Assembly: GCF_023115465.1 (NCBI RefSeq)
Contig: NZ_CP096034.1
Coordinates: 4,464,001-4,528,000, forward strand
Origin: Gottfriedia acidiceleris
GTDB lineage: Bacteria; Bacillota; Bacilli; Bacillales; Bacillaceae_G
Direction of reading: 5' to 3'
DNA: 64,000 bases
In this document: one piece after another, positions 25,987-34,652 of the stretch
Layout of the letters: every line of letters begins with the position of its first letter
Numbering within the stretch: the stretch's first letter is position 1
Translations under genes and position numbers: made by a program
The notes under the pieces: generated by a model
The model's database searches: none
What the model saw: the letters and a program-made list of their open reading frames with translations, nothing else
Told to the model about the DNA's origin: nothing

Positions 25987-27321
25987 CTACACCCCCTCGT
26001 CAAATTGAACGTAATCTTTTCTTAGTGGATAGCCAACCCAATTATCTGGCAGTAAGATCCGCTCCAATTTTGGATGACCTTCAAACTGAATACCAAGTAA
26101 GTCGTAAGTCTCACGCTCTGGCCAGTTTGCACCTTCCCATATTGGAGTAATACTATCAACAATAGGTTGTTGACGGTCTGCTCTTACTTTTAAAGCGATT
26201 CCATGGTTACGTTTATATGAATATATGTAAGAGTAAACTTCCATGTACTCAACAAAATCAGTTCCATGTAATCCAGATAAATAAGTAAATTGTAGCTGTT
26301 CATTATTCTTTAAGAACTGCGCTACTTTAAAATAAGCATCCCTTTTAATTGTAAAAGTTGGATCATGTTTAGAAAGCGTATTTATAGTTGCTTCCTCAAT
26401 AACATCCGCTCCAAACTCTTTTTCAATTAATGACTTTACTTCATCTAACAATGGTTGATTGTGAGAAGGCTTCACTTCTTCAACTGCAGCCTCTTTACCA
26501 GCATCTGTTTTACCTTTCGCTTTTGCCGCTGCTGCTGCTTTTGCCTTCGCAACTGCAATTGCCTTCGCTTTTGCTTTTGCCGCTTCATCGTCTGAACCAG
26601 CAGTTGCTGTGCCTTCTCCACCCGCTGCTTTTTGTTTTGCCAATGCCGCTGCCTTTGCTTTTGCTGCTGCTACTGCTTTTGCCTTCGCCGCTGCAATTGC
26701 TTTCGCTTTTTCATCTTCTGCACCATCTGCTGAAGCTTCTCCACCTTCTGCTGCTTTTTGCTTCGCTAACGCCGCTGCCTTTGCTTTTGCTGCCGCTACT
26801 GCTTTTGCCTTCGCCTCTGCTAAGGCCTTCGCCTTATCATCTTCAGTAGTCGCCTCTTGCTCTTCTGCATGAGCCTGTTCGCCTGATTCCGCTGCTTTTT
26901 GTTTTGCAATTACTGCTGCCTTTGCTTTTGCTGCCGCTACTGCTTTTGCCTTCGCTGCTGCTAAAGCCTTTGCCTTATCATCATCAGAAGTTGTCTCTGG
27001 CTCTTCTGCTTGAGCCTGTTCACTTGCTTCTGCTGCTTTCTGTTTTGCGATTGCTGCCGCCTTTGCCTTCGCCGCTGCTACTGCTTTTGCTTTCGCTAGT
27101 GCAAGTGCTTTCGCTTTTTCATCTTCTGAAGCTGGTTCCTCTTGTTTATCATCATTTTCAACAGTAGGCTCCTCAACTACAGGAACTTCTTCTTTTTGGA
27201 CTTCAGTATTTTTTGCAACTTCCTTTTCTGCCTTCAACTGTTCCATTTTACGTCGAGCCGCTTCTTTAGCCCTCTCAGCTGCTTCTTTCTTTAACTGTTC
27301 TTTTGACTTATCTTCACTCAC
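25987..27321 (-). CDS. nuoC: Complex I subunit NuoC with Ala/Lys repeat N-terminus
   Basis: The 444-residue protein has two parts. Residues 1-66 are highly charged. Residues 67-277 consist of five tandem, imperfect 38-48-residue repeats built from [15 protein letters not shown] and QKAAE separated by acidic linkers, predicted to be long helices. From about residue 285 comes the normal 30-kDa domain, ending in [18 protein letters not shown] and GYPLRKDY. Ordinary NuoC is about 170-200 residues. The start is GTG 27321, overlapping the nuoB stop. Alanine/lysine-rich NuoC extensions are also known from the B. cereus group. Confidence 0.93.
26491..27123 (-). repeat. Tandem coding repeats inside nuoC
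   Basis: Five in-frame repeats of roughly 115-145 bases encode AKAKA(V/A)[14 protein letters not shown] blocks joined by DDK/EEP-type acidic linkers. The copies differ mainly at third positions and in the linkers. Opposite-strand frames rich in leucine or alanine in this stretch are shadows of the repeats. Confidence 0.85.
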
Positions 27322-30364: not shown

Positions 30365-31027
30365 TTACTTATGGATACGAACAGAAACATTCATTCCTGG
30401 AACAATTTCAAATGACTTATTATGATCTAAAGCAATTCTTACAGGTACAACCTGCTCAACTTTCGTATAGTTTGCATTAGAGTTTCCAGAAGGTAATAAA
30501 CTAAATGTATTTGCAGTTGTTAATCCAACAAATTCCACAGTACCTGTTAAAGTAGTATCTGGATATGCGTCAACATACACATCAACCTCTTGACCTTTTT
30601 TCACATCTTCTACTTCAGTTTCTTTAATATTCGCAGTAACCCAAAGATTATCTAAGTTATATGCATAACCAAGAGTTGAACCTGTTCCAACTAATTGATC
30701 TTTAATCGCATTTGCTTGAACAATCGTAGCATTTGTTGGTACTGAAACTGATACTTCATGTGCAGTATCTCCAGCTGTTTGAGGCGCAGTTAAAACTTTC
30801 CCGATTGATTCATTTGGTGAAAATGTCTTTCCGAATGTACCTGACCATGACTCAAGCTTACCAGCAGCAGGAGATGAAATAACAATTTGTTGCCCATCTA
30901 TTTTTGCATTATCCGTTTTTATATAATTTGTTGTTTGATCATAATAGTAATAACCAGCAAATCCACCAGCAACTAATATGATTAAAGTAATTATGTTAAC
31001 AAACACCATTTTCTTCATGTTCCCCAT
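30365..31027 (-). CDS. HlyD/EmrA-type efflux adaptor
   Basis: The 220-residue protein has one N-terminal membrane helix (VFVNIITLIILVAGGFAGYY) and a biotinyl-lipoyl-like hairpin: NAKIDGQQIVISSPAAGKLE and ATIVQANAIKDQLVGTGSTL flank a region with almost no coiled-coil insert. Such short adaptors accompany EmrB-type exporters in Firmicutes. It lies 12 bases upstream of the exporter gene in the same operon. Confidence 0.85.
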   Translation of the reverse strand: MGNMKKMVFVNIITLIILVAGGFAGYYYYDQTTNYIKTDNAKIDGQQIVISSPAAGKLESWSGTFGKTFSPNESIGKVLTAPQTAGDTAHEVSVSVPTNATIVQANAIKDQLVGTGSTLGYAYNLDNLWVTANIKETEVEDVKKGQEVDVYVDAYPDTTLTGTVEFVGLTTANTFSLLPSGNSNANYTKVEQVVPVRIALDHNKSFEIVPGMNVSVRIHK

Positions 31028-31130
31028 AAATAAAATTCCTCCTTAATTTTTAATCGTTTCTCTATATAGGTAACAAAAGTAAAGCAACACATTGTCGTTT
31101 TACTTCTCATAGTTTTTAATTATAATTGAT

Positions 31131-31156
31131 TTATAAACGTACTCAACCGTTAATAA
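31131..31156. promoter_or_regulatory. Candidate operator for the TetR-type regulator
   Basis: TTATAAACG and CGTTAATAA form an inverted repeat (8 of 9 pairs) around an 8-base spacer in the divergent promoter region. A second near-palindrome, GTTGTTTAAGCAAC, lies at 31167-31180. TetR regulators commonly bind such sites in the gap between themselves and the efflux genes. Confidence 0.5.
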
Positions 31157-31235
31157 TTAAAAATTTGTTGTTTAAGCAACACTACTGTTATTAACTGTTT
31201 AATTTCTTAAAGTTATTTAATAAAGGAGTTTTAAA

Positions 31236-31856
31236 ATGAGCATAAAAAATAATCTCGACCCTCGTGTCATTCGAACTAGACAACTTTTACAAGATGCATT
31301 AATTACGCTACTATCAGATAAAGAATTCGAAGCGATCAGTGTACAAGATATAACTAAAAAAGCAAATGTTAACAGAGCAACCTTTTATAGCCATTACGAA
31401 GACAAATACCAAATGGTCCGCCAAATCGTTAGAGAAAAACTAGTTGATTTGGATAGCGCCATGAAAAATGTAGATTTTAGTAAATATGACGGAAACACAA
31501 ACTCACTCGATGAAATGGCCTTAAAATCCTATTTCCATCTATTCGAACATATCGAAAAAAACAGTTACTTCTACAAGGTCCTCCTAAAAAGACAAGGACC
31601 AAATATATTTAGAAGAAGACTTTACGAAGTATTATCAACAACGTTCGAAAAAGGCATTGCATTCATACAACCAAAAAAGAGTAAATACCTTGTTCCAGGT
31701 GACCTACTAGTAAGTTATTTATCAGGTGCAACTCTCAGCGTAATTTCATTTTGGGTTGAAAATGACATGCCATACACAAAAAAACACATGGCAGAATACC
31801 TTTTAAAAATCTCAAGAAATGGTGTTTTAACAACAGCGGGATTGGAATTAAACTAA
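31236..31856 (+). CDS. TetR/AcrR-family transcriptional regulator
   Basis: The 206-residue protein starts with a TetR helix-turn-helix: VRTRQLL-type helix 1, then FEAISVQDITKKANVNRATF with the recognition helix NRATFYSHYEDK at about 47-58. The C-terminal ligand domain is of the TetR_C_7-like, low-complexity type and its ligand is unknown. It is divergent from the two efflux genes, so local repression of that operon is the simplest model. GGAG lies 8 bases before the ATG. Confidence 0.88.
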   Translation: MSIKNNLDPRVIRTRQLLQDALITLLSDKEFEAISVQDITKKANVNRATFYSHYEDKYQMVRQIVREKLVDLDSAMKNVDFSKYDGNTNSLDEMALKSYFHLFEHIEKNSYFYKVLLKRQGPNIFRRRLYEVLSTTFEKGIAFIQPKKSKYLVPGDLLVSYLSGATLSVISFWVENDMPYTKKHMAEYLLKISRNGVLTTAGLELN

Positions 31857-32335
31857 AAAGAGGATTGCTGTGACAGCTCGTATAAATAGTGTATTTTGTC
31901 TTTTTTTGTTCCTGATGATGGTAGGTTTAGTTTGGGTAGGAGTCTAGAAGCGTTGTACATAGAGGGTATATGGAGAAAATCTCTAACTTGTTTATTGTTT
32001 ATCGAGTTTCCAATTAACAAAAAGTAATCAACTAAAGCATTATTATGTGCTACTTTTGAAACATAAAAGCATTACTTGCAAATCCAGTTCCCTTTATCTC
32101 GAACCATTGAAAACTGATGACAATTAATGCAAATTACACCAGTTAGTAGTTCATTTTTACCAATATTGTACTTATCTAATATATTTCGATCTAAAAGCTG
32201 ATGTTGCTTTATTAACAGTTTAGCTAATCTCCTTATTTCTTTTTGCGTATAAAAAGATGTGCCTTTTTTATTTGCATTTTCTCGTATATTTAATTGCAGT
32301 TTTCTAAATTTTAATTGTAGTTTTACAAAATTTAA
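31853..32335 (-). pseudogene. Remnant of a NERD-domain protein gene (C-terminal part)
   Basis: Translating the minus strand gives one frame broken only by TAA at 32072-32074. Before it reads EIRRLAKLLIKQHQLLD, then KYNIGKNELLTGVICINCHQ and MVRDKGNWICK; after it reads CFYVSKVAHNNALVDYFLLI and NNKQVRDFLHIPSMYNASRL. This is the zinc-ribbon and C-terminal region of the Bacillus NERD (nuclease-related) proteins as I know them. The stop falls inside the second CxxC (CK-stop-C). There is no start codon, and the N-terminal NERD nuclease domain is missing; its place is taken by the 21-bp repeats. The frame ends at TAG 31853-31855, touching the regulator gene. Confidence 0.65.
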
Positions 32336-32654
32336 TTACAGTAGCCAGAATTTATTTGCACTTTCATTAATTTAATTAGCCGTTTTACAATTTTTAATTG
32401 AAGTTTCTTCGATTTTATTTGCACCTACAGTTTATTTGCTACTATTTAAATTTATTTGCACGCTCAATCTGTTTAATTGCACCTTCTTAACTTTTTATTC
32501 CACCTACCTAGACTTTAGACTTTAATTGTCATAACTTGTCTATTCATCACTCATATAATTTTATTTGCATATTCAATCTGTTTTTTTGCACCTGCATAAT
32601 ACATAATTACAGTAACTTCTATTTTTTATTGCATCTACTCTAAAGTTAATTGCA
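32267..32654. repeat. Array of degenerate ~21-bp repeats, core TTTAWTTGCA
   Basis: The decamer TTTATTTGCA/TTTAATTGCA and its variants start at 32267, 32289, 32310, 32331, 32351, 32371, 32393, 32414, 32431, 32451, 32472, 32493, 32521, 32560, 32581, 32602, 32624 and 32645. Most steps are 20-22 bases, with one double step (32521 to 32560). About 19 periods are covered. The DNA between cores is not conserved. The reverse complement, TGCAAATAAA, reads as codons of a V-Q-I-N/K-type heptad in places and runs into the NERD remnant frame. Confidence 0.8.
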
Positions 32655-32683
32655 CCCATCAGTTTACTAATCGCCCACCAAAC

Positions 32684-32717
32684 AAAAAAAGAGCCCCAAA
32701 AAAGGGCTCTTTTTTTA
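32684..32717 (-). terminator. Terminator of the atp operon
   Basis: GAGCCC and GGGCTC form a stem around a 7-base A/T loop, with T runs on both strands. Confidence 0.85.
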
Positions 32718-32718
32718 A

Positions 32719-33120
32719 TTACTTAAATTGTGCTACGTTTAAACGGTTCATTGCTTTGTGTAAAGCAAGTTCAGCACGTTTGATATCTGTGTCAGGTCGT
32801 CTTTCTTGTAGACGTTTTTCTGCACGTTTTTTTGCTTCTACTGCACGCTCAACATCGATTTCAGTTGATGCTTCAGCAGATTGAGCCAATATTGTAACGG
32901 CTTCAGGTCGAATTTCAATGAATCCTCCACTAACTGCAACGTAATCTGTTCCAGCTGGTGATTTAATTTTAACAGGTGCTGTTGCTAACGGTGCCACAGT
33001 TGAAATGTGTCCTGGTAAAATACCTAGCTCACCACTAGTTGCTTTCGTGCTAACGAATTCTGTTTCGCCTTCATAAGCCGGTCCATTAGGAGTGACGATA
33101 CTGACTTTCATTGTCTTCAT
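32719..33120 (-). CDS. atpC: ATP synthase epsilon subunit
   Basis: The 133-residue subunit of the F1 central stalk has the N-terminal beta sandwich ([40 protein letters not shown]) and a C-terminal helical hairpin that can inhibit ATP hydrolysis. It is the last gene of the operon. Confidence 0.95.
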
Positions 33121-33203
33121 AGTGAACTCCTCCTGTCTAGCTTCGTGAGCTAATCAAGTTCATTCAAATAGAATGATGAACAAGCCTTTCGATTAGACAA
33201 TTA

Positions 33204-34652
<1,449 letters not shown>

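Follow-up and report, generated by a model that had tools for sequence, protein, structure and literature searches.

Tandem 20–21-bp repeats that tend to lie behind terminators in Gottfriedia, and their constrained core as a possible protein-binding site

The stretch of DNA analysed here (the window, 64,000 nucleotides of Gottfriedia acidiceleris, NCBI RefSeq assembly GCF_023115465.1, contig NZ_CP096034.1, positions 4,464,001 to 4,528,000 of the forward strand) carries a tandem repeat array behind the terminator of the ATP-synthase (atp) operon. In the direction in which this operon is transcribed, the locus reads as follows:

32719..33120, minus strand: atpC, an open reading frame (ORF) matched in 13 of 13 genomes of the genus; the gene upstream of the array, with which the array shares its orientation
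32684..32716, minus strand: intrinsic terminator of the atp operon, a GAGCCC..GGGCTC hairpin with a T tract in the sequence, transcriptionally upstream of the array
32655..32683, minus strand: G-rich linker on the transcribed strand from the terminator to the first unit, read by eye
32267..32654, minus strand: 21-bp repeat array of about 18 units, with the core TGCAAWTAAA on the atp-operon strand and TTTAWTTGCA on the plus strand
32072..32266, minus strand: what remains of the C-terminal part of a NERD-domain gene, adjoining the array at its distal end; 48 aa align with the NERD protein of locus L156 at 77% identity

The window array is confirmed as real and lies far above chance. Seven exact copies of TTTAWTTGCA occur on the plus strand between 32267 and 32654, compared with a mean of 0.04 and a maximum of 1 in 1000 dinucleotide shuffles; there are 14 copies with up to one mismatch (shuffles: mean 0.58, maximum 4) and 16 with up to two (mean 3.9, maximum 10). 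A preliminary description of this DNA had proposed autocorrelation as a check, and the value at lag 21, 0.469, indeed exceeds the best value of lags 20–22 in the shuffles (mean 0.351, SD 0.018, maximum 0.410). It had also counted 18 cores at near-constant steps of 20–22 bases: the 18 in-phase cores are recovered only when up to three mismatches are permitted, and the mostly 20–22-bp steps are broken by steps of 17 (32414–32431), 28 (32493–32521) and 39 bp (32521–32560), so that the steps vary more than described. TRF recognizes the array in pieces only (32289–32406 and 32472–32516, period 21). The terminator scan used throughout places the atp-operon terminator 30 bp ahead of the array; a second scan for promoters and terminators did not list the hairpin at 32684..32716, and the promoter scan gave five weak matches against 4.3 expected. 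A similar G-rich stretch follows the atpC terminator in loci L155–L163, including L161 and L162, which have no array. Elsewhere in the window, an ORF on the minus strand (25987–27321), which we take from its C-terminus to be NADH dehydrogenase subunit C-like, contains a long alanine-lysine coding repeat at 26613–27131.

Similar arrays are dispersed over the same genome (G000), where exact core pairs at 10–12 bp spacing occur 26 times (reversed-pattern control, 0), core pairs with up to two mismatches at 11-bp spacing 91 times (control, 1), and the single core TTTANTTGCA 354 times (reversed control, 115). Grouped by eye, about 26 loci contain at least two core pairs; 17 loci besides the window were taken, 13 of which hold an array by the counting rule. 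The preliminary description had let its case depend on similar arrays in related genomes, and exact core pairs were found in nine of the 60 genomes searched, namely the own genome and eight of the 12 other members of the genus. Similarity of the upstream flanks joins own-genome loci, such as L010 behind fumA, to loci of G. acidiceleris, G. luciferensis and Bacillus sp. FJAT-25509. At least 80 stretches in named genomes have three consecutive exact cores. Among the matches listed, most belong to Gottfriedia, related Bacillus sp. and Gracilibacillus (period 20) and a few to Cytobacillus oceanisediminis, Metabacillus kandeliae, Fictibacillus aquaticus and Bacillus sp., and six of the stretches listed (L063, L064, L075, L076, L085 and L087) are unrelated, ordinary near-identical satellites. 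L064 and L076 lie on contigs of Planctomycetaceae metagenome-assembled genomes (MAGs) and are near-perfect 21-bp satellites in which the core TGCAAATAAA is present by chance. Viral contigs contain 42 stretches with one core pair apiece. At L020 (G000:C1:3657685-3657715), a possibly intragenic site, the spacer of a core pair is identical in G000, G005, G007, G008 and G010 and unlike the array spacers.

The six satellites are included in the first, 100-array orientation count, the first terminator count, the set of 340 units, the flank grouping, the curvature set and the centre base counts, and are all excluded from a recount over 94 arrays and from one further step count. The 109 array entries of the flank grouping and the curvature set count at least two loci twice (window/L155 and L010/L168), and some genomes may coincide; the 94-array recount is free of both doubled loci.

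Consecutive cores are most often 21 bp (314 steps) or 20 bp (162) apart and less often 18 (18) or 17 bp (7) (94 arrays, 88/92 loci), and the mean of steps between 19 and 23 bp is 20.7 bp (94 arrays, six satellites removed), which supports the earlier reading of the period as about two helical turns. A set of 340 units with period 21 has a degenerate spacer after the core TGCAAWTAAA and, within this spacer, a weaker RAAAC box; the information of the core is inflated in this set because the cores were selected by it, and the six unrelated satellite loci are included. Comparison of orthologs (pairs with runs of N left out) gave mismatches of 0.061 in the core versus 0.205 in the spacers for 201 units from 78 locus pairs, whose spacers had to be at least 60% alike. 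For 465 slots placed 21 bp from a neighbouring core irrespective of their own sequence, mismatches were 0.082 in the core, 0.042 at its six inner positions and 0.201 in the spacers, i.e., the inner positions differ about five times less than the spacers; orthologous pairs share lineages, and hence none of these counts is independent.

The central base of the core is almost exclusively A or T. Changes at the core centre are exchanges between A and T in 27 of 31 cases versus 235 of 826 changes in the spacers (Fisher p = 4e-11, from pairs that are not independent). The centre base counts themselves favour A/T because the loci were collected with A/T-centre patterns; in a count that avoids this collection bias, the nine array-bearing genomes contain four pairs whose first centre is G or C (control, 0) versus 316 in which both centres are A or T. 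A centre that accepts A/T exchange but neither G nor C suggests a readout of double-stranded DNA, and the earlier proposal of a multi-site array for a putative protein gains from both the core constraint and the A/T-only centre. By eye, a second array type (core TCGCAAWTAAA, period about 20) stands behind atpC, after the TGCAAWTAAA type or in its place, in L165 (G008), L159 (G005), L156 (G007) and L157 (G006). Behind the atpC terminator of L167 (G004), an array-like stretch has another core, GAATAAC..GAAA, with a step of about 20–21 bp by eye and a non-significant autocorrelation (z 1.6).

If the strand that reads TGCAAWTAAA is taken as sense, the upstream gene lies on the same strand in 77 of the 95 arrays with an upstream call in the first count of 100 arrays. 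In a count per region, from which array-born ORFs and five MAG loci were removed (five of the six satellites out, L063 kept as tandem antisense), the 74 intergenic regions with an array divide into 25 convergent, 36 tandem sense, 12 tandem antisense and one divergent, compared with 29 convergent, 219 tandem and 64 divergent among the 312 other regions of the same loci. The preference for tandem sense over antisense (p = 0.0007) and for convergent over divergent regions (p = 9e-10) carries optimistic p values because orthologous loci were counted repeatedly. In 56 of 92 arrays, the 250 bp upstream contain a sense terminator, at a median distance of 35 bp, compared with 21 of 88 at the mirror position (56/98 and 23/92 with the six unrelated satellite loci kept); in the remaining 36 of the 92 arrays, the same scan detected no upstream terminator. 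Three of the 12 antisense arrays among the 48 tandem regions are one orthologous locus and one is satellite L063; L017, from the orthologous trio, has a 62-aa ORF on the same strand ahead of the array, and no tRNA gene precedes an antisense array in the 12 loci searched for them.

Arrays follow the atpC terminator in eight of 13 genomes of the genus, and in some of these the second array type is seen by eye in tandem with the first. Downstream of fumA, 6–20 near-exact cores are present in seven of the 12 genomes with enough flank, G005 has one unit-like vestige, and G001, G004, G008 and G009 have none or one. Genome-wide pairs with up to two mismatches number 87 in G008, close to the 91 of the own genome, 10 in G001, five in G011 (control, 1), three in G004 and none in G009. 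Three of the five approximate pairs of G011 are near-identical to their G000 counterparts; these three may be vestiges or belong to coding sequence. The atpC plus fumA tree (midpoint root, five forks weakly supported) unites the nine array bearers and G011 on a starred branch and nests G011 inside this group on another such branch; with the tree rooted at its midpoint, the absence of arrays from G011 is a loss only if the root falls outside the array-bearer group.

Repeats of this kind have been reported before. In the part of their text available, Subirana and Messeguer (2021; PMC8161180) describe Bacillus repeats of 20–21 and 52 nt with constant size and variable sequence, which are mostly noncoding and form several arrays per genome, with a short sequence common within a species and specific to it; they note the two helical turns, propose a polymerising protein or a small RNA, and call the repeats enigmatic because their length is conserved and their sequence is not. 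As far as the class is set out there, the window array is a member of the 20–21-nt repeats: steps of 21 and 20 bp predominate in the 94 arrays, no ORF of 40 aa spans the window array and 20- and 21-bp steps are mixed, and each genome has several arrays with a short, species-specific sequence, whose core also occurs in some other genera. The words terminator, downstream, orientation, intergenic, luciferensis and acidiceler do not occur in the available text of PMC8161180, nor do terminator and orientation in that of PMC6749651 or terminator and downstream in that of PMC8625621. Our literature search returned no report of placement behind terminators, and a 2020 predecessor in J. Bacteriol. could contain one. 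As far as the literature was searched, what is added here to the repeats of PMC8161180 is that the arrays are found preferentially behind intrinsic terminators, that most of them have one orientation relative to the gene upstream and almost none stand between divergent genes; that orthologous cores change far less than spacers and have A or T almost exclusively at the centre; that the placement recurs with an unrelated core in one further genome (G107) and weakly in another (G088); and that the nested species G011 is without arrays.

Among other known elements, three invite comparison. Plasmid centromeres of the ParR/parC type consist of tandem direct repeats of about 20 bp that are helically phased and read by one protein; the arrays are likewise helically phased direct repeats, but chromosomal and spread over about 26 loci. 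CRISPR also combines a short conserved repeat with a variable spacer, with longer repeats and unique spacers of similar length, whereas the arrays have a 10-bp core, 10–11-bp degenerate spacers that are partly alike between orthologs and about 26 dispersed loci, and the window array was rightly set apart from CRISPR in the preliminary description. BIME/REP and DNA-uptake-type extragenic elements share the 3′-end intergenic position and the species-specific sequence, but the array core is non-palindromic and the tandem period regular.

Our preferred reading, to which we give a probability of roughly 0.4, is that the arrays are helically phased double-stranded DNA sites for a putative lineage-specific protein and form a boundary behind operons. 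The asymmetric 10-bp TGCAAWTAAA sites would stand behind a transcription terminator, on the strand of the upstream operon, and because they are repeated every 20–21 bp the cores would face the same side of the helix. A putative sequence-specific protein could then occupy neighbouring cores along a single face of the DNA, possibly as an oligomer, and the bound complex may serve as a boundary or architectural complex behind operons that, for instance, curbs readthrough or antisense transcription or pins a supercoiling domain; we infer such a boundary role from place and strand. Units would be gained and lost through local recombination, with the core held by selection. Placement and conserved core together suggest an undiscovered DNA-binding system, and terminator placement, strand preference and the constrained core turn the puzzle of a repeat conserved in size into testable questions about the reader protein, about polymerase stop or supercoil organisation, and about core differences between lineages.

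The orientation bias toward the upstream gene would also suit an RNA element, in which sense readthrough or antisense RNA is functional, for example with Rho recruited by the antisense RNA or a protein bound by the sense RNA. Purines make up 0.638 of the sense strand in the 94-array set, so that antisense RNA would be pyrimidine-rich, and 52-nt repeats of B. coagulans were seen in RNA-seq according to the available part of PMC8625621. We nevertheless consider an RNA element unlikely: exchange of A and T at the core centre would not be expected of RNA recognition, the window array folds no better than shuffles (z +1.74 sense, +0.44 antisense), the arrays of G088 are without purine bias (0.515), and the array lies behind the terminator wherever one is seen. 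Rfam gave no match at the gathering score over window positions 31000–34000 and four matches below it, of which SSRC38 (E 0.8) overlaps the array end. A neutral or selfish satellite that spreads by slippage, unequal recombination and conversion wherever insertion is tolerated, with no host function, is about as improbable in our estimate. It would fit the strong copy-number variation across orthologous loci, the multi-unit blocks repeated in L172 (by eye), the absence of arrays from G011 and the upstream proteins of the own-genome arrays, which by eye are mutually unrelated and have no common function; yet decay should strike core and spacer equally, contrary to the fivefold difference at the inner core, and the orientation bias and the scarcity of divergent regions need an added cause, which for the scarcity could be promoter avoidance.

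Phased A/T tracts that bend the DNA, as proposed earlier, or a gyrase or supercoil-apex site formed by them are less probable still. The two-helical-turn period, an AA signal at periods 10–10.5 over shuffles and a mean net bend of 69 versus 53 degrees in shuffles speak for curvature (wedge-angle bend model, applied to the 78 of 109 entries that were long enough and free of N). Against it, the mean z is 0.8, 32% of the 78 arrays lie under their own shuffles, the 3′ flanks reach 65 degrees, and the window array, for which a curvature prediction had been proposed as a check, has a z of 0.47; the AA peak is equally strong at period 7, and the 10.5 peak may thus be a mere harmonic of the 21-bp repeat. 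The preliminary description had also considered the decayed remains of a coding heptad expansion that had grown into the adjacent NERD gene; in favour of it, 21 bp equal seven codons and the NERD remnant adjoins the window array. This origin is highly improbable and we reject it: the ORF list contains no ORF of at least 40 aa across the window array, the frame is broken by frequent 20- and 18-bp steps, and the 14 arrays examined in the own genome all stand in gaps between ORFs and follow unrelated genes. The arrays have no special tie to NERD genes, and judged by eye no NERD protein was recognised among the upstream proteins of the own-genome arrays, on the upstream side to which this inspection applied. 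In G007 (L156), a longer, intact NERD gene follows the array, and some arrays elsewhere contain chance open frames.

The proposed protein-binding sites could be part of a lineage-diversified boundary system of the Bacillaceae, in which 10-bp cores, spaced two helical turns apart behind terminators and set in a preferred orientation, would be read by a putative protein whose site specificity changes fast. We regard this wider reading as rather doubtful; if it were true, each lineage would have its own core dialect with period, placement and polarity kept, and loss of the protein would entail loss of all arrays, as in G011. A second genus (G107) keeps the placement with an unrelated core, GAGTTCTGAA (66 pairs; control, 0): with sense fixed from the array behind atpC of each genome, the upstream gene of the G107 arrays is on the same strand in 15 of 17, and a terminator lies upstream in 10 of 17 compared with four of 17 at the mirror position. 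The third genus (G088, core GACCGATATA) does so weakly, with 9/14 on the same strand and a terminator upstream in 3/14 versus 4/14 at the mirror position. The difference in core identity between genera argues against a single conserved protein, which would not explain it. Most of the best 27 atpC flanks outside the genus, taken from 120 genomes, gave no periodicity signal, with lags picked as the best of a range. Among these 27, a 20–21-bp periodicity with other cores is clear in L197 and L199 and weak in L187 and L198, the flanks of L205 and L207 peak at lags 53 and 52 and so resemble the 52-nt repeats already published, and L202 has a strong 42-bp repeat behind atpC.
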